DNA from: Acidithiobacillus ferrivorans
GTDB taxonomy: Bacteria; Pseudomonadota; Gammaproteobacteria; Acidithiobacillales; Acidithiobacillaceae
DNA: 32,810 nt
Assembly: GCA_020723125.1 (NCBI GenBank)
Contig: DYJM01000013.1
Coordinates: forward strand, 1 to 32,810
Direction: 5' to 3'
The position numbers were made by a program, and so were the translations under genes. Below the pieces are notes generated by a model. That model was not told where the DNA came from and did not search any database. It saw nothing but the letters and a program-made list of their open reading frames with translations. Of this stretch, positions 16,707 to 32,724 are shown one piece after another (position 1 is the first letter of the stretch; the number at the start of each line of letters is the position of its first letter).

Positions 16707-17270
16707 TTACTGCTCAGGAAACTCCAGAAGCTGCGGAAAGATTTTCTCCCGATAATAAGCCAGTTCGTCGATGGATTCACGGATATCCGCCAGGGCCTCA
16801 TGTTTTTCTGCCTTGGGAAATTTCGGGAAGCCGGGATACCAGCGGGAAGTCAGCTCCTTGAGCGTGCTGACATCAATCATCCGATAGTGAAAAAAGCGCT
16901 CCAGTCGGGGCATCAGTCGTGCCAGAAAACGCCGATCCTGGCAAACACTATTGCCGCAAATGGGCGAAGTTCCGGCAGCGACATGCGCGTTGAGAAAATC
17001 CAGGGTCTGGGTTTCCACGGCCTGGGTATCCAGGAGACTGTCCCGCACCCGCTGAATCAGCCCGGATTGACCATGGGTACGCTGATTCCAGTCATCCATT
17101 TTGGCCAGCACGGTGTCAGGATGATGCACGGCCAGCACCGGCCCTTCGCAGATAATGCGAAGCTGGTTGTCGGTGACAATGCTGGCGATTTCAAGAATTT
17201 CATCCTGCTCAGGGTGCAGACCGGTCATTTCAAGATCCACCCAGACTAGGCGTTGGTTTTTAGGGTCCAT
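16707..17270 (-). CDS. orn: Oligoribonuclease
   Basis: DEDDh 3'-5' exonuclease that degrades the shortest RNAs, including pGpG from cyclic-di-GMP turnover; essential in many gammaproteobacteria. From the ATG at 17270 it is 187 residues (E. coli 181). Acidic residues are in [10 protein letters not shown] (D12, E14), NSVCQDRRF and [11 protein letters not shown] (His and Asp of the final motif). The ATG at 17270 has AAGGAT upstream and gives the family N-terminus; the longer open frame upstream runs into the small-RNA region and is not supported. Confidence 0.95.
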
Positions 17271-17322
17271 GCGACATCCTTGTTGAACAAGCAACAATAG
17301 TGTAGCATGATAACCACGATAT

Positions 17323-17480
17323 AAAAAAAGACGGATCGGAGATCCGTCTAATAGCCGCAAAACAACCGCTACAAAACTGTTTCATACCTAAAGCACTGCG
17401 GCCTTCGGGCCGACGGTGCATAAAATTCTTGATGCGCTCCCTCTTTCTGTGAGGCTTGAGTACGTTGTGCCCTCGCCATG
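17323..17480 (-). ncRNA. Candidate small RNA A (tandem paralogue)
   Basis: No protein gene fits here. On the minus strand a promoter-like block (GGAAATATTCC at 17519-17509 and TACTAT at 17492-17487) is followed by about 158 nt ending in a strong terminator: AGACGGATC/GATCCGTCT (17349-17329) and then seven T residues (17329-17323). The last 50 nt before the T-run are the same as in candidate RNA B except for a few bases in the loop and at the upstream edge. A further hairpin, CGGCCCGAAGGCCG, lies in the middle part. The 5' end is inferred from the -10 position. Confidence 0.6.
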
Positions 17481-17486
17481 GACTGC

Positions 17487-17519
17487 ATAGTACGGACGTT
17501 TTGTTTCTGGAATATTTCC
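17487..17519 (-). promoter_or_regulatory. Promoter block of candidate small RNA A
   Basis: GGAAATATTCC followed by AGAAA, then TACTAT 17 bp after the ATATTC segment. The same layout with identical spacing precedes candidate RNA B. The near-palindromic GGAAATATTCC covers the -35 position, so it may be an operator. Confidence 0.5.
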
Positions 17520-17574
17520 GCAAAATACCCTGTTTGACTTTTTTTGGAGGCCCGTTTGCTTGTTCACAGCACCC

Positions 17575-17718
17575 ATAAAAGAAGACGGATCAAAGATCCG
17601 TCTAATAGCCGCAAAACAACCGCTACAAACCTGAAAGCATAACCGTTTTTATCATTTACCGGTCTGCTGAAAAACGCGCTCCACTCTATCTTTTGGTTTG
17701 GGTACCGCTGCTGCCTAT
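17575..17718 (-). ncRNA. Candidate small RNA B (tandem paralogue)
   Basis: About 144 nt on the minus strand between the promoter block at 17757-17725 and a terminator hairpin AGACGGATC/GATCCGTCT (17603-17583) followed by TTCTTTT. The 3' half (17632-17583) is nearly identical to that of RNA A and contains TAGC/GCTA flanking a U-rich loop with UUGUUUUG, a plausible base-pairing site. The 5' parts differ apart from short blocks such as GGAGCGC. No open frame with a ribosome-binding site is visible. Confidence 0.6.
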
Positions 17719-17720
17719 GG

Positions 17721-17757
17721 TGTTATAATAGGCGGTAAATATTTCGGGAATATTTCC
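17721..17757. promoter_or_regulatory. Shared divergent promoter of ompR and candidate small RNA B
   Basis: On the plus strand an extended -10 (TGTTATAAT, 17721-17729) points to the response-regulator gene 74 bp away. On the minus strand TATTAT (17730-17725) uses the same bases as the -10 of small RNA B, with GGAAATATTCC (17757-17747) at its -35. The two -10 elements are superimposed, so transcription probably starts in both directions from one site. Confidence 0.5.
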
Positions 17758-17802: not shown

Positions 17803-18486
17803 ATGGCGGTCGTGTTGATAGTGGACGATGATCAAAGGCTTGCAGATATGCTGCGGGAGTATCTGGTAGCACAGGGATTTGCGGTTTTGCTGGCAGCCAA
17901 TGGCAAGCAGATGCGTCAACACCTGCTTGCTGGCCCAATAGATGTCATCGTATTGGACTGGATGTTACCAGGTCAGGATGGCATCAGTCTGGCCAAAGAG
18001 TTACGCAGTAAGGAAGGCGGCCCACCCATTCTGATGCTCTCGGCCCGAGGGGAGGATGACGAGCGCATTCTTGGCCTGGAAAGTGGGGTGGACGACTATT
18101 TGGCCAAGCCTTTTAACGCCAGAGAATTGTTGGCGCGCTTGCGCGTACTGTTGCGGCGGAGCGGCAAGGATGAAGGTGCTGACAAGGTGGAGATCGGAGA
18201 ATTTCACCTGCAGATTTCGGAGCGCCGGCTGTATCGAGGCGATGCTGAGGTGGACATCAACCCGGCGGAAATGGATTTATTGCTGGTTTTCGCACAACGA
18301 CCAAAACGTATTTTGAGCCGGGACTTGCTGCTGCAGCTTTTGGGCGGCGAAGAAGATGGACGCTTTGATCGCAGTATTGATGTGCGCGTAACCCGCTTAC
18401 GAAAAATACTGGAAGAAAATCCCCGTCAACCGCGTTTTCTGCAGACAGAGCGTGGCTTGGGCTATCGTTTTGTGCCGGGTCCATGA
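17803..18486 (+). CDS. ompR: OmpR-family response regulator
   Basis: DNA-binding response regulator of 227 residues. The receiver domain (about 1-118) has the acidic pair VDDD (8-10), phosphoacceptor D52 in IVLDWMLPG, the conserved Ser/Thr in LSARGE and Lys in YLAKPF. The C-terminal winged helix (about 130-227) ends with RSIDVRVTRLRKILEE and TERGLGYRFVP. Wording throughout (DDDQRLADML, ANGKQM, FNARELLARLR) is closest to OmpR rather than PhoB. The ATG at 17803 is chosen over an in-frame TTG 33 bp upstream because it gives the standard MAVVLIVDDD start and follows GAGGCAGG. Its stop overlaps the kinase start (ATGA). Regulation of the nearby Pho locus is possible but not shown. Confidence 0.88.
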   Translation: MAVVLIVDDDQRLADMLREYLVAQGFAVLLAANGKQMRQHLLAGPIDVIVLDWMLPGQDGISLAKELRSKEGGPPILMLSARGEDDERILGLESGVDDYLAKPFNARELLARLRVLLRRSGKDEGADKVEIGEFHLQISERRLYRGDAEVDINPAEMDLLLVFAQRPKRILSRDLLLQLLGGEEDGRFDRSIDVRVTRLRKILEENPRQPRFLQTERGLGYRFVPGP

Positions 18487-19778
18487 GTTTGCGGCGGGGC
18501 AGAAATTTATTTTCGCAGACGGCCTGGACGCTGGGGCCGGGTATTGTCATTTTACAGATTCTGACCTTGGTAATAGTTGTTCTGACCGTGCTTTATCCCT
18601 TGGCAGAACGCTCAGCCGAGGATTTAGCCGGTCTGATTGTGATCAGCGCCAAAACCTACACCGAGCTTTCGCCCGAAAAACGACCGGCTTTTCTGGAAAG
18701 CCTGCGTGCCGATAATGGGGTAGAAATCTCGGCGCAACTGGACCGCTCAATCAAACATACGCATGGTCATATTTATGGTTGGCTTTTGAGCCAGGCACTC
18801 AGTAAACGTCTGGGGAAACCGGTTCCCGTAGATGTGTTGGGTGGCGCGGTACGAACTTTCTGGGTGCCGGTAAATATTTCCGGACAAACCATCTGGGTGC
18901 ATTTTGATCGCGGGCGCCTCGCTTCGTCATTGCCCATCGCCATGATTTTTGTTTTGGCATTTTCGACTCTGGCGCTGGTGGTTTTGACCATGATTCTGGT
19001 GCGCAGGGTTTTAAAACCATTGGATGTCATTTCAACAGCGCTCAGAAGCTCGCTGAAAGCACCCCTGCCGAGTCTGCCCCCTGGTGGAGCCTATGAGTTT
19101 CAGAATATTCTCGATATTTTTGCAGAATTACGCACCCGTTTGCAGGCAATGATTAATCATCAATCGCTTTTATTGACGGGTATTTCCCATGATTTACGTT
19201 CGCCTTTGGCCCGATTGCGCATGGCTTGGGAACTGCTTCCGGAAAATACCCCCCGGCATTTGCACGATGGCATGCTACAGGACATCGAACGCATGGACGC
19301 CCTGCTGGCACAATCGCTGGATCTGGGGCGCGGTATGGCAGCCAAGGTGGCAGATTTCGATTTGATGGTTTTGTTGCAGGAAGTCGGTTCAGATTTTGAG
19401 CGGGCCGGAGGTCAATGGCATGCTCAGTTACCGCGCCGTTATGCTTTTCGGGGTGATCGAGAGGCGTTACGACGCTTGTTATCCAACTTGCTGGATAATG
19501 CCATACGTTATGGCGGCGGAAAGGTTCGCGTGGAGTTCAGAAAAATGGCCAACCAGGTTCTGATCCGCCTCTGTGATGCCGGGCCGGGGATTCCGGAAAT
19601 CGAGTTGGAAAAGGTTTTTGAGCCATTTATTCGTCTGGATGATGCCAGGGGTCACGGGGAGGGAAGCGGATTGGGCCTGGCCATTGCCCGTCAGTTGGCC
19701 GAAGCACAGGGCATGCGCCTGCGCTTGTTGAATGGGGCTGGTGGCGGCTTGTGTGCAGAATTATCCTGGCCCGTTTGA
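18483..19778 (+). CDS. envZ: EnvZ-like sensor histidine kinase
   Basis: Inner-membrane sensor kinase, presumed partner of the response regulator it overlaps. Two transmembrane helices (about 20-40 and 152-173) enclose a periplasmic sensor loop of about 110 residues. A HAMP domain follows (RRVLKPLDVISTALRS). The phosphorylated histidine is H236 in GISHDLRSPLARLRM, the EnvZ-type H-box. The ATPase domain has the N-box LLSNLLDNAIRYGG, G1 DAGPGIP and G2 GEGSGLGLAIA. The length of 431 residues is close to E. coli EnvZ (450). It ends 21 bp before the structured repeat. The stimulus is unknown. Confidence 0.88.
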   Translation: MSLRRGRNLFSQTAWTLGPGIVILQILTLVIVVLTVLYPLAERSAEDLAGLIVISAKTYTELSPEKRPAFLESLRADNGVEISAQLDRSIKHTHGHIYGWLLSQALSKRLGKPVPVDVLGGAVRTFWVPVNISGQTIWVHFDRGRLASSLPIAMIFVLAFSTLALVVLTMILVRRVLKPLDVISTALRSSLKAPLPSLPPGGAYEFQNILDIFAELRTRLQAMINHQSLLLTGISHDLRSPLARLRMAWELLPENTPRHLHDGMLQDIERMDALLAQSLDLGRGMAAKVADFDLMVLLQEVGSDFERAGGQWHAQLPRRYAFRGDREALRRLLSNLLDNAIRYGGGKVRVEFRKMANQVLIRLCDAGPGIPEIELEKVFEPFIRLDDARGHGEGSGLGLAIARQLAEAQGMRLRLLNGAGGGLCAELSWPV

Positions 19779-21562: not shown

Positions 21563-22279
21563 CTATTCGTCTTGACCACTGAGTTTGAACTCCACCCAGA
21601 TGCTCAAATCGAAGATTTTGTTCTTGAGACCTGCGGGGACGGCGGGCAGTCGCGCGTCGCGCAAGGCGGCAATGGCAGCGCTATCGAAGGCGCTCATACT
21701 TCCTTTTTGCATGATTTTCACGCCACTAATCTGACCATCATGAAGGGAAAAGTGCAACTGTACCCGTCCATTTTCACCCAGCATTTTTGCAGATTCCGGA
21801 AAACGGACGGCTGCCTGAATGGCGCCTTTCACTTGTGCCAGATAGTCCTCGCGCACGGCCGGGCTCACCGGAGCAGGACTCTGCGGGGGAGGCGGTGGTG
21901 TCGCCATGACTTTGGGTGCCGGAGCTTGCACCGGGCTGGGCAATGGTGATGGTGGCACCGGAATTTTCTCCTGGGGTTTGGCAACAGGGTGTGGAACCGG
22001 CCGCGGTGTTGGTCGTGGAGTCGGTCGCGGTACGGGCTTTGGTTGTACCTTTGGCTTGGGCGTGGGTGGCAACGGTTTGGGCGGAGCGGGTGGCACCAGA
22101 CTGATGGTAACGGGGGCATTGATGGCTGCCGGCGGGGGAGTTTGTTTTGTGCCTTGCCAGATCAGTACGGCGACAAAAGCCGATTCAATGGCGGCTGCAA
22201 TCATCAGCGCCTTGAGGTTGCCTCTACCGTTTGGCGCCTTGACCAGACTTCCCAGCGGACGCAGATCTGCGGACATCAT
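21563..22279 (-). CDS. tonB: TonB family energy-transducing protein
   Basis: Spans the periplasm and passes energy from ExbB/ExbD to outer-membrane receptors. There is one N-terminal transmembrane helix (about 23-41, LKALMIAAAIESAFVAVLIW). A long proline-rich region (about 47-140) with many Pro-Lys and Pro-Arg pairs follows. A C-terminal TonB domain ends it (about 150-235), with AVRFPESAKMLGENGRVQLHF and a DGQISGVKIM turn followed by FDSAAIAALRDARLP. It has 238 residues. Its start overlaps the exbD stop (ATGA), so the two are translationally coupled. It is the only tonB in the window, although two exbB-exbD pairs are present. Confidence 0.92.
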   Translation of the reverse strand: MMSADLRPLGSLVKAPNGRGNLKALMIAAAIESAFVAVLIWQGTKQTPPPAAINAPVTISLVPPAPPKPLPPTPKPKVQPKPVPRPTPRPTPRPVPHPVAKPQEKIPVPPSPLPSPVQAPAPKVMATPPPPPQSPAPVSPAVREDYLAQVKGAIQAAVRFPESAKMLGENGRVQLHFSLHDGQISGVKIMQKGSMSAFDSAAIAALRDARLPAVPAGLKNKIFDLSIWVEFKLSGQDE

Positions 22280-22668
22280 GACACGGGTTTGGCGGCAAGG
22301 CCGATTGCGGTGACCCCGGCATGACGACAGGCATCCATGACTTTTACCAGCGCCTGAATATCGGCGCCCTTATCAGCGGCAATGGTTACCTGGGTTTCTG
22401 ATGGGTTTCCCTGGCGCAATTGGGCTTCGAGATCCTGGAGAGTGATGGTTTTGTCCTTGAATTCCAGGCTGCCATCGGCATGTAGGGTCAATACCACTTT
22501 GGGTTTGGGTAATTCCTGGGCAGAACTGGAACCGGGAAGCTGCGTTGGTAATCCTTGGCTGGGAATCATGTGGACGGTGATCATGATGAAGAAAATCAGC
22601 AAAAATAGCATGATATCAATCATCGGGATAATCTCGACACGCCCTTTTTTCATTTCGAGGTATTGCAT
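22276..22668 (-). CDS. exbD: Biopolymer transport protein ExbD
   Basis: Inner-membrane component of the TonB motor, 130 residues. A cytoplasmic start (MKKGRVEIIPMID) leads into one transmembrane helix (about 13-32) whose IPMIDIMLFLLIFF motif carries the proton-carrying Asp conserved in ExbD/TolR. The remainder is a periplasmic domain with ITLQDLEAQLRQ and VTIAADKGADIQALVKVMD. The next gene, tonB, overlaps its stop. It lies 3 bp after exbB. It is paralogous to the ExbD at 29854, sharing the whole membrane motif. Confidence 0.94.
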   Translation of the reverse strand: MQYLEMKKGRVEIIPMIDIMLFLLIFFIMITVHMIPSQGLPTQLPGSSSAQELPKPKVVLTLHADGSLEFKDKTITLQDLEAQLRQGNPSETQVTIAADKGADIQALVKVMDACRHAGVTAIGLAAKPVS

Positions 22669-22671
22669 GAC

Positions 22672-23349
22672 TCAGGCCTCTTTCGCCGCATAAATGACAG
22701 GCTGGGTCTCGGTAGCATTCAGGGCATGACTATGGTCCAGTCCGGACATACGATTGATGAGCATGCTGCGCAAGGTTTCCATTTGGTGCACGACAAAACG
22801 CATCTGATTTTGCAGACCATTAAAACTGACCAGACCGATAATGGCGATGACCAGACCGGCAGCAGTGGCCATCAGGGCTTCAGCAACACTTCCGGTAATG
22901 GCCGTGGGATTGTTGGCTACGTTGTTTAAAATCTGAAACGCATGAAACATACCGATAATGGTGCCCAGAAGACCCAGCAGGGGAGCCAGGGTAACCGTGG
23001 TATCCAGGAGCCAAAGACGCTTATCCAGCAAGGGGACCTGACGCATGACCGCTTCCTGAAGAATCTCGGAAAGCTGCGCGCTGTCCTTGATATTGGGGAA
23101 ACGGATGGGGATCTGGAGCAATGCGCGAAAGGGAAATTCCGCAGAATCTGCGAGAGGACGCAGGCTTTGTTCCTTAATGTCCGGAAGTTGTTCCAGAGTG
23201 CTCGCCACTTTTTCGCCGAGGCGACTCATACGACTTAAAAACAAAAAACGCTCTATGCTCACCCATAAAACGATCAAGAGGAGCACAGGCATGATATAAA
23301 GAATACCGCCGGATTTGGCGGCAACGCTGGCTATTGTAGAAAAGTCCAT
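22672..23349 (-). CDS. exbB: Biopolymer transport protein ExbB (MotA/TolQ/ExbB family)
   Basis: Proton-channel subunit of the TonB motor, 225 residues, with three transmembrane helices (about 12-32, 120-142 and 158-180). The conserved family core is WLLDTTVTLAPLLGLLGTIIGMFHAF followed by ITGSVAEALMATAAGLVIAIIGLVSFN. It is separated from the upstream receptor gene by 67 bp containing a stable hairpin. The gene is preceded by GAGAG and is part of the Pho-box operon. Confidence 0.94.
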   Translation of the reverse strand: MDFSTIASVAAKSGGILYIMPVLLLIVLWVSIERFLFLSRMSRLGEKVASTLEQLPDIKEQSLRPLADSAEFPFRALLQIPIRFPNIKDSAQLSEILQEAVMRQVPLLDKRLWLLDTTVTLAPLLGLLGTIIGMFHAFQILNNVANNPTAITGSVAEALMATAAGLVIAIIGLVSFNGLQNQMRFVVHQMETLRSMLINRMSGLDHSHALNATETQPVIYAAKEA

Positions 23350-23371
23350 GTTGGTTCTCTCTTGTAAAATT

Positions 23372-23397
23372 GCCTCTCCAAAGTCATAAGGAGAGGC
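23372..23397 (-). terminator. Intercistronic hairpin between the receptor and exbB
   Basis: GCCTCTCC (23372-23379) and GGAGAGGC (23390-23397) form an 8-bp stem with a 10-nt loop. Only AATTTT follows on the minus strand, so it probably terminates partially or protects the receptor mRNA, allowing more receptor than motor protein to be made. Confidence 0.5.
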
Positions 23398-23416
23398 TGA
23401 CTCGGTTATTTAATGC

Positions 23417-25618
23417 CTAGAAAGTGGCATCAATGGTCGCATATACATTGGTTGGGAGATTGAGCTTCAGATTTGGATTGCTGCTGCTGCCGGAATAGCT
23501 CTGTACAAAGCGGCGATCAAACAAATTGTTCAGGTTGAGGCTGGCAGTCACATTTTTGAAGCCCAGAGACTGGCCAAGGGGCGCATTTCTGAAAGTGTAA
23601 CGTAAAGAAGCATTCGTAAAGAAACGACTACCCAAAGGCAGGAATTTACCACCCAGGTTATAGTACGACTGCCCCATCTCATGTAGGGAAACCGTTGCTC
23701 TCAGGCCATGGTAACGGGCAATCAACCCCAGTGCCTCGGTATGATGCGGAGCATAGGGAAAAGGCTGATGAGACGAGGTTAAACGGGCGTCGAGGACGCC
23801 GAAGTTGGCGTAGGCACTGAAAATATTGTTCAGCACGATGTTATTTTGCCAGGAGAGGCCCTGATTTATGGCCGTTCCAGCGTTTGCCAGCACAGTCTGA
23901 TTCTGTGATCCAACCAGTATGGTCGTACTTAAAATGTAGTTCTGGAAATCGACGCGGAAGGCCTGCAGACTGGAGCTCCAGGGGCCGATGTTCCAGTGTG
24001 TACCTAGGCTGTAGGTGTTGGCTTTCTGAGGTTTGAGCTCAGCATTGTAGGTTCCGATATAAAACTGGTTGTATCCAGGAGGATTGGTATTTTGGGTAAA
24101 ATTGACAAATGCATGCCAATTGTCGGTGATACGCAGGTTGGCACCCACAGAAGGTAATACCGAGCCGAAATTTACATTGAATTGACCAGGCTTGTTTTGC
24201 GCCAGAGCCACTGTATTTTTAAAATCCCGGGTGACATAAAGATATTTAAAACCGGCTGCCAGGGTAAGTGCATCGACAGGCTTGTAAGTTAAGTTGATAT
24301 AAGGCTGATAGGTGTTGGTGACCACCGGCTCGGAGTAGGAAGATCCGAGATACGTATTACTGGCACTGAAATAACGGGAATCATGCAGTGAATTATTGTG
24401 ATTGAACCAGAAACCCAGTTCTGTGCTGACCGGACCAAGCGGATAGATGATACGGGCCAGATTCCCCCAGCGATGAGTAATGTTAACGCTATTTCTCAGT
24501 AAAACGCCATTCCTTGCAGGAGAAAATCTGCCAATCGTCCCTGCTGGTGTCAGTAGTGTCTGGGTATATGTAGTCGCACCGGCGCCGAATCCATTACCGT
24601 AGTAGTAATATAACTGATCGGAGAACTTGACCTTGCCAATTTCGCCTTCATATTTGGCGTAGCCCAGCCAGTTCAGGTACTGATTATAGTTATATCCCGT
24701 GTAATTATAATTGGCCTTGCCGTTTGGGAGTAGAGGATTGCTGGTATAACTGTTGTAATCCTGTCCGTATTGGGCTATTTGCGCTGCTGTGGCGCCATTA
24801 TAATAGTTGAAGCGTTGATTGTTCTGGGAGAAAAACAGGGTCAGGGCACCAGGTCCAATCTGAGTAACAGACTTGAACAAAAACTGGTTTTGCAGTGCAC
24901 CGTTATTCTGGAAATAGCCATCCCGCTGAATTTTATTCACATATATCCAGGCGGAAGTCGGGGCAAAGTTCTTGGCAAAAAGACCGGTGTTGATCAAACC
25001 ACCGACATTATATTTACCGAAAGATCCCGCACCGACGATGGGGCGCACAAAAGGCGATGGTGATGGCTTGAGGCTGTAGGTCTCCACGGAGCCGCCGAAG
25101 GCTGAAAGACCTGGAATCGCTGCAGATTCAGCGCCCGGATAATATTTGGTGCCGGCTACCAGTACAGAGGGGATGAACTCGTTGGTGTAATAGGTATAAC
25201 TGTCGTTATCATTGAGCGGGATACCATCCAAGGTAAAATTGATCAGTGATTTGCTGAATCCGTTGATGTAAACGTCATCGCCATCCATGCTGTCACCACT
25301 GCTGACGACCATGGCGTTGGGCATATTGCTCAATACCTGGGTATAGGCGTCGGTGGGTGACAACATTTCAAATTGCCCCCGGGTGATCAGGGTCTCCTGA
25401 TTGGTGGCTCTTTTATTGAATTTCTGGATGCGCTGGATGTCGCTTTTGGGCGTTTCTCCGGTATTGACATTGGGACTGCTACCGAAGAAATTGTTGCTGG
25501 CTGTGGCCGTTCCGGTTACTGTCCCCAAAGACTGATCCGCTTCTGCGCCAATGCCGTAGAGGCTCAGCGTGGCGCTGATAATGGCAAGATGAAGTACTTT
25601 CTTACGGCGATTGATCAT
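23417..25618 (-). CDS. TonB-dependent outer-membrane receptor (Pho-regulated, operon 1)
   Basis: Outer-membrane beta-barrel transporter gated by TonB. From the ATG at 25618 it has 733 residues: a signal peptide (1 to about 27, ending GIGAEA), a short extension, a plug domain (about 70-200, with QVLSNMPNAMVVSSGD, DDVYINGFSK, FTLDGIPLNDND and GLSAFGGSVETYSL), then a 22-strand-type barrel rich in Tyr, Asn and aromatic strands. It ends in Phe (DATF), the usual C-terminal recognition signal for barrel assembly. The in-frame start at 25675 would add 19 residues before the signal peptide; GGGAG precedes the ATG at 25618. The substrate is not readable from the sequence. Cotranscription with phoD under a Pho box suggests a phosphate compound. 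Confidence 0.9.
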   Translation of the reverse strand: MINRRKKVLHLAIISATLSLYGIGAEADQSLGTVTGTATASNNFFGSSPNVNTGETPKSDIQRIQKFNKRATNQETLITRGQFEMLSPTDAYTQVLSNMPNAMVVSSGDSMDGDDVYINGFSKSLINFTLDGIPLNDNDSYTYYTNEFIPSVLVAGTKYYPGAESAAIPGLSAFGGSVETYSLKPSPSPFVRPIVGAGSFGKYNVGGLINTGLFAKNFAPTSAWIYVNKIQRDGYFQNNGALQNQFLFKSVTQIGPGALTLFFSQNNQRFNYYNGATAAQIAQYGQDYNSYTSNPLLPNGKANYNYTGYNYNQYLNWLGYAKYEGEIGKVKFSDQLYYYYGNGFGAGATTYTQTLLTPAGTIGRFSPARNGVLLRNSVNITHRWGNLARIIYPLGPVSTELGFWFNHNNSLHDSRYFSASNTYLGSSYSEPVVTNTYQPYINLTYKPVDALTLAAGFKYLYVTRDFKNTVALAQNKPGQFNVNFGSVLPSVGANLRITDNWHAFVNFTQNTNPPGYNQFYIGTYNAELKPQKANTYSLGTHWNIGPWSSSLQAFRVDFQNYILSTTILVGSQNQTVLANAGTAINQGLSWQNNIVLNNIFSAYANFGVLDARLTSSHQPFPYAPHHTEALGLIARYHGLRATVSLHEMGQSYYNLGGKFLPLGSRFFTNASLRYTFRNAPLGQSLGFKNVTASLNLNNLFDRRFVQSYSGSSSNPNLKLNLPTNVYATIDATF

Positions 25619-25801
25619 GACTGGCTCCCTTCCGTTAGTGTTTGACGCAAAAAACCATAACAACGCAATTTTCATGTTTGCGCTGTCTTAAACCCCTGCC
25701 ATATCCCACCGGAACTTCCGGAACTTACAGTGCGGCCAGAAGGTGGCGGTATTTATTTCAAACAGTCGTTTTGGGCTTACGCTTGGTTATCTAATTGTTG
25801 T

Positions 25802-30291: not shown

Positions 30292-32724
30292 ATGTACCGT
30301 AAAACAAAGATGCGTCCATTAACCCTTGCCTTGGCTGCTACCGGCCTCTTGGGCTTGATACCACTGGCCCATGCGGGGGTGACCGCCCAGACGCGCAGCG
30401 CACGGGTACGCCACAAAACCCATCAGCAAAGCATTGCCGTAGGCGAAGTTTCCAGTAATGTGGTGACACAATCTGTTTATGCGCAGCATACGCCAGAATT
30501 GCCTAGCCAAAAAAAGGTTTTCAAATCAGGTGTCTCATCCAAAGTGCTGGGTCGGAATGAAATAGAGGCAGCCGGACCTGCAGCAGGTGGTGCGCAGATG
30601 CTGAGTTATGCTCCAGGGGTAAATGTTTTGGCCAGTTATGGTACGGGTGCTGCGAAAGCGCAAATTAGTATCGATGGAATCAAGCAGGGTTGGGGACATC
30701 CTAAACCATCGGGCGCAGCACATAGTATCGCTATTTCATTTGATGGCATTCCTATGAATAATCCCGCCACTGGACTTTGGCAATCTCCACAGGTCAATCA
30801 GCCTTCGATCATACAAGGCATCCATGTAACCTATGGACCCGGTAATCCTGAGAATCGTTGGTACAATAACATTGGTGGCGGGATTGATTTTGTACCAATT
30901 CAGCCCACCAAAAAACCGGGTGCCAACATCGGCATGCGCTATGGTAGTGATGATTTTAAAAACATCCACTTTGACGTACGTACCGGGGATGTGGATGGGT
31001 TTTCTGCGGTACTGGCTGGTGGTGTCAGTACAGGAAATAGTTTTCTGAAGGTGCCCGCTGGAACCAAACTGCCGGGGCCGGGAGGGTTGCCGGAAACATC
31101 TGGAACGGTTTTGCCAAGTAATAGTTATGCTTGGTTTTTTAAAGTACGTAAAAGCTTTCATGCTGGTGATGATAGTTTTGGCGCTTATCTTGCCAAAGGC
31201 ACTGCGTACAAACCTTATGATATTCTGCTTTATCCATCCAAGGCAACTATTAATGGTTATGTTTACAATAAGGACTCAAAAAAAGAAGTGCCTATACCTG
31301 GGCCAATATGGAGCCAGCAAACAACGGGATATTATGATACAATGCCATATAAAATTGATAGTAACACCACTTGGATGTTTTACAATAAGTTAAATGTTAA
31401 TATCGGTGCGAAAACTACCCTGCATAATGATATCTGGTATCGTTATGGGCATAGATTGCATCAGCGATACGCATCCTATGCGGTTGGTGCTCCTAATACC
31501 AATGAATATAATAATCCGCATAGCGAAACCTATGGTGACAAGTTATGGTTTGATAGTAAGTTGCCTTATAACCACATATCATTTGGTGGTTACTTCATAA
31601 AAACCAGAGATAACTCAAAGAATGCTTTTTATAGTCAATATGCGCCTTATAATGCCAGTCGTTTTGTTCCAAATGACAAGTTCCGTAGTGACTATTTAGA
31701 TCAAACTGATCTGGCAGCATTTTTCCAGGATACTATTCATCCAATGTCTACACTGGATATTACTCCAGGAGTTCGTGTAGAACAGTTTCAAATGAATTAC
31801 ACCCCATTCACAGAACAGGATTTTCCTGAGGCCAGTATAAAATATCCGCATGGTATTGAGTCCAAACTGCCTGCGGCATCACGTAGTTTAAGTGCGGTAG
31901 AGCCATCCATCAATGTCAGTTGGAGGCCTATGCATCATCTGGCCCTTTTTGCAGGATATAGCGAAGCCTATCAAACGCCTACCTTTGGTGGTGGCGGTGG
32001 ACCTTTCCAAAAACTGCCAGCTAGTTCTCTTTCTCTGGAAAAAGGTCAAAATTATCAAGCAGGCTTCAAAATTCATGTTGCGCATGATGGTGTGTTGAAT
32101 CATTTTCTATTTAACGCCAATTGGTTTTTCACGAGATTTTCTGACCAATACATTCCAATCACAGAGGAGCCTAGTGGAAATGTAATCAATGCGGAGGGAA
32201 CTTCAGATTATGAGGGCGTCAATATTTACGCGGTTGATACGCCACTTTACTGGTTGCATACCTTTGCTAATTTGTCTTTCCAGAAAGCATATTACAGTAA
32301 CTACACGGTTAAGGGTAAGAACTTCCAGGGGTTACCGGTTGAAAATGTGCCATCCTCAACCTTCAATATTGGCGCTTATACGGAATATTATTTGTCGGGT
32401 ATTTTGCTGGAACCCCGGCTTTGGGTGCAATACACTGGTCCCCAAACAATGTATGACAGTATCACCAAGACGCCTTCGCCAACCGCCAAACTCCCTGCTT
32501 ATACACTGTTAAATTTGTCTGTTCACAGTCGGATACCTCTGCATATGCCATACTTCCGTAATGTTGGCGTTGATGTAGATGTGCTGAATTTGTTGGGACG
32601 CCATTACAACAGTTATGAGGAAATCAGTGATGGCAAGACTTTTGGGCCCGATACCAAGGGTGATTTGGTTGGGTTTCCGGGAGCACCGCGTACAGTGTAT
32701 GTAAGCTTGACCGCCAACTTCTGA
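30292..32724 (+). CDS. TonB-dependent outer-membrane receptor (Pho-regulated, operon 2)
   Basis: Complete TonB-dependent transporter of 810 residues. It has a signal peptide (1 to about 28, ending LAHA), a Gln/Arg-rich extension with a possible TonB box near QQSIAVGEVSS, and a plug domain (about 80-215: SSKVLGRNEIEAAGPAAGG, QMLSYAPGVNVLASYGTG, ISFDGIPMNNP, NNIGGGIDFVP). A long beta-barrel follows, ending VYVSLTANF. It is more distant from the first receptor than the two ExbBD pairs are from each other. The coding sequence is visibly richer in A and T than the exbB-exbD genes just upstream. The ATG follows a GGGAG. The substrate is unknown; Pho control suggests a phosphorus compound. Confidence 0.9.
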   Translation: MYRKTKMRPLTLALAATGLLGLIPLAHAGVTAQTRSARVRHKTHQQSIAVGEVSSNVVTQSVYAQHTPELPSQKKVFKSGVSSKVLGRNEIEAAGPAAGGAQMLSYAPGVNVLASYGTGAAKAQISIDGIKQGWGHPKPSGAAHSIAISFDGIPMNNPATGLWQSPQVNQPSIIQGIHVTYGPGNPENRWYNNIGGGIDFVPIQPTKKPGANIGMRYGSDDFKNIHFDVRTGDVDGFSAVLAGGVSTGNSFLKVPAGTKLPGPGGLPETSGTVLPSNSYAWFFKVRKSFHAGDDSFGAYLAKGTAYKPYDILLYPSKATINGYVYNKDSKKEVPIPGPIWSQQTTGYYDTMPYKIDSNTTWMFYNKLNVNIGAKTTLHNDIWYRYGHRLHQRYASYAVGAPNTNEYNNPHSETYGDKLWFDSKLPYNHISFGGYFIKTRDNSKNAFYSQYAPYNASRFVPNDKFRSDYLDQTDLAAFFQDTIHPMSTLDITPGVRVEQFQMNYTPFTEQDFPEASIKYPHGIESKLPAASRSLSAVEPSINVSWRPMHHLALFAGYSEAYQTPTFGGGGGPFQKLPASSLSLEKGQNYQAGFKIHVAHDGVLNHFLFNANWFFTRFSDQYIPITEEPSGNVINAEGTSDYEGVNIYAVDTPLYWLHTFANLSFQKAYYSNYTVKGKNFQGLPVENVPSSTFNIGAYTEYYLSGILLEPRLWVQYTGPQTMYDSITKTPSPTAKLPAYTLLNLSVHSRIPLHMPYFRNVGVDVDVLNLLGRHYNSYEEISDGKTFGPDTKGDLVGFPGAPRTVYVSLTANF

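Follow-up and report, generated by a model that had tools for sequence, protein, structure and literature searches.

Two tandem units between orn and an OmpR-type regulator gene of Acidithiobacillus ferrivorans probably encode sibling small regulatory RNAs not described before

The window, i.e., the whole 32,810-nt stretch of Acidithiobacillus ferrivorans DNA that was analyzed, contains a 532-bp gap between the ATG of orn (17270, minus strand) and the ATG of an OmpR-type response regulator gene (17803, plus strand). An earlier note on this DNA had placed two minus-strand units in the gap; the sequence check found both, and their coordinates were confirmed base for base. In each unit, a box with an 11-bp direct repeat is followed by a -10 element, a non-coding stretch, a 22-nt core and an intrinsic terminator. 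The features of the locus are as follows.

18483–19778, plus strand: EnvZ-type sensor histidine kinase gene; Pfam HisKA and HATPase_c.
17803–18486, plus strand: OmpR-type response regulator gene, divergent from unit 1; Pfam Response_reg and Trans_reg_C.
17740–17757, minus strand: unit 1, putative activator box GGAAATATTCCCGAAATA, GAAATA-N5-GAAATA, 11-bp direct repeat; matched without mismatch here and at one more place in the genome (unit 2).
17725–17730, minus strand: unit 1, -10 element TATTAT, 9 nt after the box; register kept in 51 units.
17577–17718, minus strand: unit 1, predicted sRNA of ~142 nt, its start placed ~7 nt past the -10 element; covariance-model score 131.5 bits, fold z -1.34.
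17695–17702, minus strand: unit 1, conserved motif CCCAAACC; from the alignment.
17677–17682, minus strand: unit 1, motif GGAGCG; invariant in the 18-sequence alignment A1.
17604–17625, minus strand: unit 1, core TAGCGGTTGTTTTGCGGCTATT, a putative seed; invariant in alignment A1.
17577–17603, minus strand: unit 1, intrinsic terminator, stem 17603–17583; terminator scan and compensatory stem changes.
17502–17519, minus strand: unit 2, putative activator box GGAAATATTCCAGAAACA; sequence, and a 0-mismatch genome match.
17487–17492, minus strand: unit 2, -10 element TACTAT; sequence, and register in 51 units.
17323–17480, minus strand: unit 2, predicted sRNA of ~158 nt; covariance-model score 90.4 bits, fold z -2.04.
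17453–17460, minus strand: unit 2, its version of the CCCAARCC motif, CTCAAGCC; sequence and alignment.
17435–17440, minus strand: unit 2, motif GGAGCG; sequence and alignment.
17350–17371, minus strand: unit 2, core, the same as in unit 1; sequence and genome-wide core search.
17323–17349, minus strand: unit 2, intrinsic terminator, stem 17349–17329; terminator scan.
17299–17307, minus strand: extended -10 promoter of orn, TG-n-TACACT, behind the unit 2 terminator; a TGnTAnnnT-like sequence lies at the same place in the relatives listed.
16707–17270, minus strand: orn (oligoribonuclease), the downstream neighbour, outside the sRNA units; NCBIfam oligoribonuclease, 270 bits, above cut-off.

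The description of the gap as lacking a convincing protein gene holds: no ORF is conserved across the units, and unit 1 has no ORF of at least 15 codons. Also as described before, the spacing between box and -10 element is identical in the two units (9 nt), and the 3′ ends are nearly so; the 22-nt core is the same in both, and the terminator scan of the region returned exactly these two terminators, each with a 9-bp stem and then a T run (shuffled mean, 0.9). The 5′ parts had been called diverged, which is only partly the case, since across the family both units carry CCCAARCC and then, about 10–20 nt later, GGAGCG.

Both proteins encoded next to unit 1 have the domains of an OmpR/EnvZ-type pair. 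The regulator combines response-regulator and winged-helix domains, and its best NCBIfam model is OmpR, with 236 bits under an equivalog cut-off of 331; the best model for the kinase is EnvZ, with 191 bits under a cut-off of 415. Just past the two-component genes, the window contains a tonB-exbD-exbB cluster together with a gene for a TonB-dependent receptor (21563–25675, minus strand), and a second such receptor is encoded at 30292–32724 (plus strand). TonB/receptor genes are found close to the regulator in other genera too.

In both units, the promoter block consists of GGAAATATTCC-n-GAAAYA, with 9 nt between the second half-site and the -10 hexamer. An ungapped stack of 51 units reads G(G)AAATATTCyn-GAAAyA, nine variable bases, and then yAnnnT. 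As the box served to select these units, part of its conservation is built in; the -10 element played no role in the selection, and its positions A2 and T6 are identical in 51/51 units at a fixed spacing from the box, although the units share descent and their agreement does not amount to 51 independent observations. With GAAATA and GAAACA as half-sites, the repeat has a period of 11 bp, or about one helical turn, an arrangement typical of OmpR/PhoB-type regulators. A consensus scan of the region found no sigma-70 promoter with a -35 element, which is what would be expected of an activator-dependent promoter. The exact box (0 mismatches) has two matches in the 2.4-Mb genome, both at the locus, and all 19 exact boxes in 11 genomes sit at the sRNA locus as well; the site therefore looks dedicated. 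With one mismatch allowed, the same 11 genomes yielded three further boxes at the locus and 13 elsewhere, and a reversed-pattern control (up to one mismatch) gave one match in total. The geometry of box and -10 element and the near-exclusive location of the box are thus established by comparative sequence analysis.

Based on the divergent adjacency, the promoter geometry, the co-occurrence of regulator and units, and the exclusivity of the box, it is fairly likely that the neighbouring OmpR-type regulator activates both units. Alternatively, the same sRNA genes might have another driver, e.g., the paralogous OmpR studied in A. caldus, and the adjacency would then be incidental. Paralogous OmpR-type regulators do exist at ~40–47% identity, and the knock-out study of the A. 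caldus EnvZ-OmpR (F0726_02628), an OmpR-type system from the same bacterial family, reported predicted boxes with GAAACAT-like half-sites (PMC9861516). The primers of that study map to L128 (G021 C1:60800–64200), with a kinase gene alongside, and not to the orn-linked locus; the product of L128 is a paralogue of the orn-linked regulator, with 42% identity. The identification of the orn-linked locus with the published A. caldus OmpR was therefore rejected, and it follows that the orn-linked regulator is unstudied. Against another driver, the confinement of the exact box to the locus is easier to reconcile with a dedicated neighbour than with a global OmpR, and in the loci compared the regulator gene lies next to the units in divergent orientation, even where the two units are split. 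Moreover, G029, a genome of the same order, has a 50%-identical regulator and a kinase, but neither box nor sRNA, and no orn within 11 kb around the regulator. A driver other than the neighbour is accordingly regarded as unlikely.

In alignment A1 of the predicted RNAs, the first ~15 nt vary, and the core, which adjoins the terminator, does not; overall, the core is nearly invariant and the rest of the RNA varies. Mean identity in ten genomes was 0.94–0.96 for the core-terminator tail, about 0.80 for the boxes and 0.69–0.74 for the middles, and fell to 0.41 for the spacer and 0.51 for the regulator-side flank. Relatives show compensatory changes in the terminator stem. A hairpin was also predicted around the core, but it shows no covariation across relatives, and its 5′ arm is missing in some short units; a conserved hairpin was rejected because of this lack of covariation, and the core is thus treated as sequence. 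Folding is only mildly more stable than that of shuffles (z values as listed above). The borders of the units, the conservation of the core and the covariation of the terminator likewise come from the comparison of genomes. The region has no Rfam match at gathering score, and with E-values up to 10 it matches only Arrc11, L20_leader and PrrF, all with E-values above 3.

DNA and covariance-model searches of 57 genomes detected the units in 28 of the 29 Acidithiobacillaceae genomes, the exception being 61% complete, and in none of the 28 genomes outside this family, two of the same order included. Such recurrence across the family rules out chance, and the synteny is family-wide by the same comparison. 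Copy number at the locus ranges from one to three. The exact 20-mer of the core occurs in 24 stretches among 84,980 species, the records being Acidithiobacillus, Igneacidithiobacillus or else proteobacterial MAG contigs that carry no genus name; viral and plasmid collections gave no meaningful core match. Within a genome, the 3′ tails mostly resemble each other more closely (mean 0.91) than those of non-equivalent units from different genomes do (0.85), a hint of gene conversion.

Several relatives depart from the arrangement in the window. In genera g3 and g4, there is often an extra short unit beside the regulator; the short first unit (L022, L023, L025, L027, L048) has box, -10 element and core, and is without the CCCAARCC/GGAGCG part. 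Its box, close upstream of the regulator gene, could serve autoregulation. The single unit of genus g2 (L029 in G020, L030 in G017) has partial repeats of the 5′ part of the core, GTAGCGGTTGTAGTGGTTGTAGCGGTTG, just before the core. In G026, the units lie ~4 kb apart, one adjoining orn and the other adjoining the regulator, and both are intact; the ~4 kb inserted between them hold several ORFs (L132, 1000–5300). In G010 (L008, first ~100 bases of C114), the box of unit 1 is replaced near the contig start by unrelated sequence, perhaps the end of an insertion element, and the RNA part of unit 1 and the whole of unit 2 are intact despite the loss.

The proposal of paralogous tandem sRNA genes, as put forward in the earlier note, is well borne out: the units have their own promoter block and terminator, no conserved ORF and a copy number of one to three, and box, core and terminator are conserved well above the spacer. 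It is very likely that the units are genuine non-coding transcription units, and what the sequences describe is probably a small regulatory RNA gene, hitherto undescribed and present in two copies, whose set-up is kept across the bacterial family.

As for the function of the core, the analysis favours, with some reserve, units that would act by base-pairing through it. The U-rich pairing site proposed in the earlier note is likewise a hypothesis, with a 17-nt core that hardly varies. A search for core antisense targets (14-mer, up to one mismatch, eight genomes) gave isolated matches only, besides copies of the core itself; those of them that were read in context lie on the wrong strand, in mobile-element-like genes or otherwise outside conserved start regions. 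Core duplex energies for 26 genes of the window revealed no outlier, the best being tonB (-21.6 vs. a mean of -16.9, sd 2.6). For the start regions of TonB-receptor genes, core complementarity compared with shuffled cores had p-values of 0.02–0.06 in set one and 0.15–0.28 in set two; compared with 201 non-receptor genes, no excess was found (p 0.25–0.66 at scores 8–9.5). TonB-receptor mRNAs were dropped as targets, as they are not enriched over these 201 other genes. Porin family PF13609 gave sub-threshold matches only. One stretch of the window, CCGTAAAACAA (30297–30307; codons 2–5 of the TonB-receptor gene at 30292), could pair with the core over 11 bp, one of the pairs being G-U; this match is kept in G003, and is not significant set-wide.

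The core also occurs outside the locus. In the genome of the window, the 20-mer core with up to two mismatches is found only at the locus, and one more match appears at three mismatches. Elsewhere, the core (exact or with 1–2 changes) stands directly before unrelated terminators at about eight places, namely in G002 (L042), G003 (L038 and L039), G004 (L037), G008 (L034), G010 (L155), G016 (L036) and G019 (L035). Two of these sites are at G019 C1:2021380 and G008 C158:19555. The first three bases of the core are the stop codon of a small ORF in the G002, G004 and G016 copies, and inspection by eye found no OmpR-type box at the outside copies. These are the 3′ ends of other transcripts and not decayed copies of the locus. 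Their flanking genes encode SSB, HU-like, sigma-70-like, Dam-type methyltransferase, PLD-like and Panacea-domain proteins, which suggests mobile elements at several of these places. One speculative reading, to which little probability is given, is that core and terminator form a portable regulatory 3′ end. Mobile elements would then carry the core in the short 3′ UTRs of their own operons, beside ssb, HU-like, sigma-factor-like and methyltransferase genes, and transcripts of these operons would give rise to mimics of the host sRNA that feed into the OmpR-driven RNA circuit or titrate it.

The same copies, some of them right after stop codons, raise the possibility that the core is a 3′-end module with a protein-recognized or 3′-end role, which the units merely supply without pairing to mRNAs. 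The near-invariance of the core next to an otherwise variable RNA would agree with this. However, such a role leaves the conserved 5′ motifs and the dedicated promoter unexplained, and a strictly conserved stretch of ~17–22 nt is seen more typically in pairing seeds than where Hfq/ProQ-type proteins bind a 3′ end. A core without a pairing function is therefore considered doubtful.

The remaining explanations fare considerably worse. As orn directly follows unit 2 on the minus strand, the units might be a cis-acting leader or attenuator of orn and not free sRNA genes. Both units, however, end in terminators, unit 1 or several more units lie upstream, and in G026 the units are 4 kb apart; in addition, orn has its own extended -10 promoter between the unit 2 terminator and its start, which indicates that the units are not its leader. 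This reading is highly improbable. Mobile palindromes or plain repeated terminators without transcripts of their own would account for the occurrence of core and terminator at other places in some genomes, but in the genome of the window the core is confined to one locus. The earlier note would have accepted such a reading if homologues had retained the hairpin without the promoter block; among units of the orn/OmpR locus, 51 still have the block, one clear loss was seen (unit 1 of G010), and the reading has next to no probability. Small-protein genes are just as implausible: in some close relatives, an ORF of 16–36 codons starts in unit 2 near the predicted RNA start, but ORF length and frame vary, most of the listed units have none, and the length differences between units are not multiples of three.

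Among known systems, GacA-RsmX/Y/Z is a two-component system that works via a small set of sibling sRNAs, with a dedicated box upstream, and the Rsm RNAs use their many GGA motifs to sequester CsrA/RsmA. In the present case, the regulator is OmpR-type, and each unit has only two GGA motifs, one of them within the terminator stem, which does not correspond to a Csr/Rsm sponge. The sibling csRNAs of CiaRH in Streptococcus are transcribed from CiaR promoters with TTTAAG-N5-TTTAAG, 10 nt and a -10 element (PMC3091779). They share with the present units the sibling sRNAs, a direct repeat of two 6-mers separated by N5 at ~10 nt (here 9 nt) before the -10 element, intrinsic terminators and a copy number that varies between species; strong promoters of the two-component regulator are a feature of the csRNAs. 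The present units differ in the box (GAAAYA instead of TTTAAG), in the tandem position beside the regulator, whose best NCBIfam model is OmpR and not CiaR, and in the phylum, and no sequence relationship to the csRNAs was seen. OmrA/OmrB are tandem sibling sRNAs under an OmpR-type regulator, with near-identical 3′ ends, divergent middles and 1–2 copies, and TonB-dependent receptors are their classic targets (PMC4211561). The units resemble them as apparent tandem siblings behind OmpR-type direct-repeat promoters. In contrast, OmrA/OmrB are 82–88 nt long and pair via a conserved 5′ end, whereas the units are ~142–158 nt long with the invariant segment next to the terminator, have no Rfam match, and OMP targeting is unsupported. 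On these grounds (no Rfam match, another box, the conserved segment at the opposite end of the RNA), the units, as judged from sequence, belong to neither the CiaR-csRNA nor the OmrA/OmrB family. What the analysis adds to the earlier note is the likely regulator, the direct repeat of 11 bp, the two common 5′ motifs and the family-wide distribution.

The scheme that we infer, from transcription and the binding regulator to Hfq dependence, base-pairing, targets and signal, is that of sibling trans-acting sRNAs of the Hfq type, activated by the divergent OmpR-type regulator and pairing via the core; taken as a whole, it is considered likely. The OmpR/EnvZ-like two-component system would sense an envelope signal, and the phosphorylated regulator would bind the direct repeat GAAATA-N5-GAAAYA, standing in for a -35 element, and recruit RNA polymerase to the -10 element 9 nt downstream. 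Each transcript (~142 and ~158 nt) would be ended by a terminator of its own. The G/U-rich core, which hardly varies and immediately precedes the terminator, would base-pair with mRNAs, and the partly divergent 5′ halves may add targets for each sibling. The comparison of genomes also found hfq, over cut-off, in 7/7 genomes.

Acidithiobacillus are acid-living, metal-leaching bacteria, and the literature searched contained no two-component-controlled base-pairing sRNA of this genus, though these bacteria have Hfq. The shared core in 3′ UTRs elsewhere raises the question of RNA mimicry by mobile elements. If the scheme is true, the units would be the likely output of an unstudied OmpR paralogue, and the pair of sensor and regulator, with its best DNA site restricted to the sRNA genes that it controls, would represent a compact case of signalling mainly through RNA.
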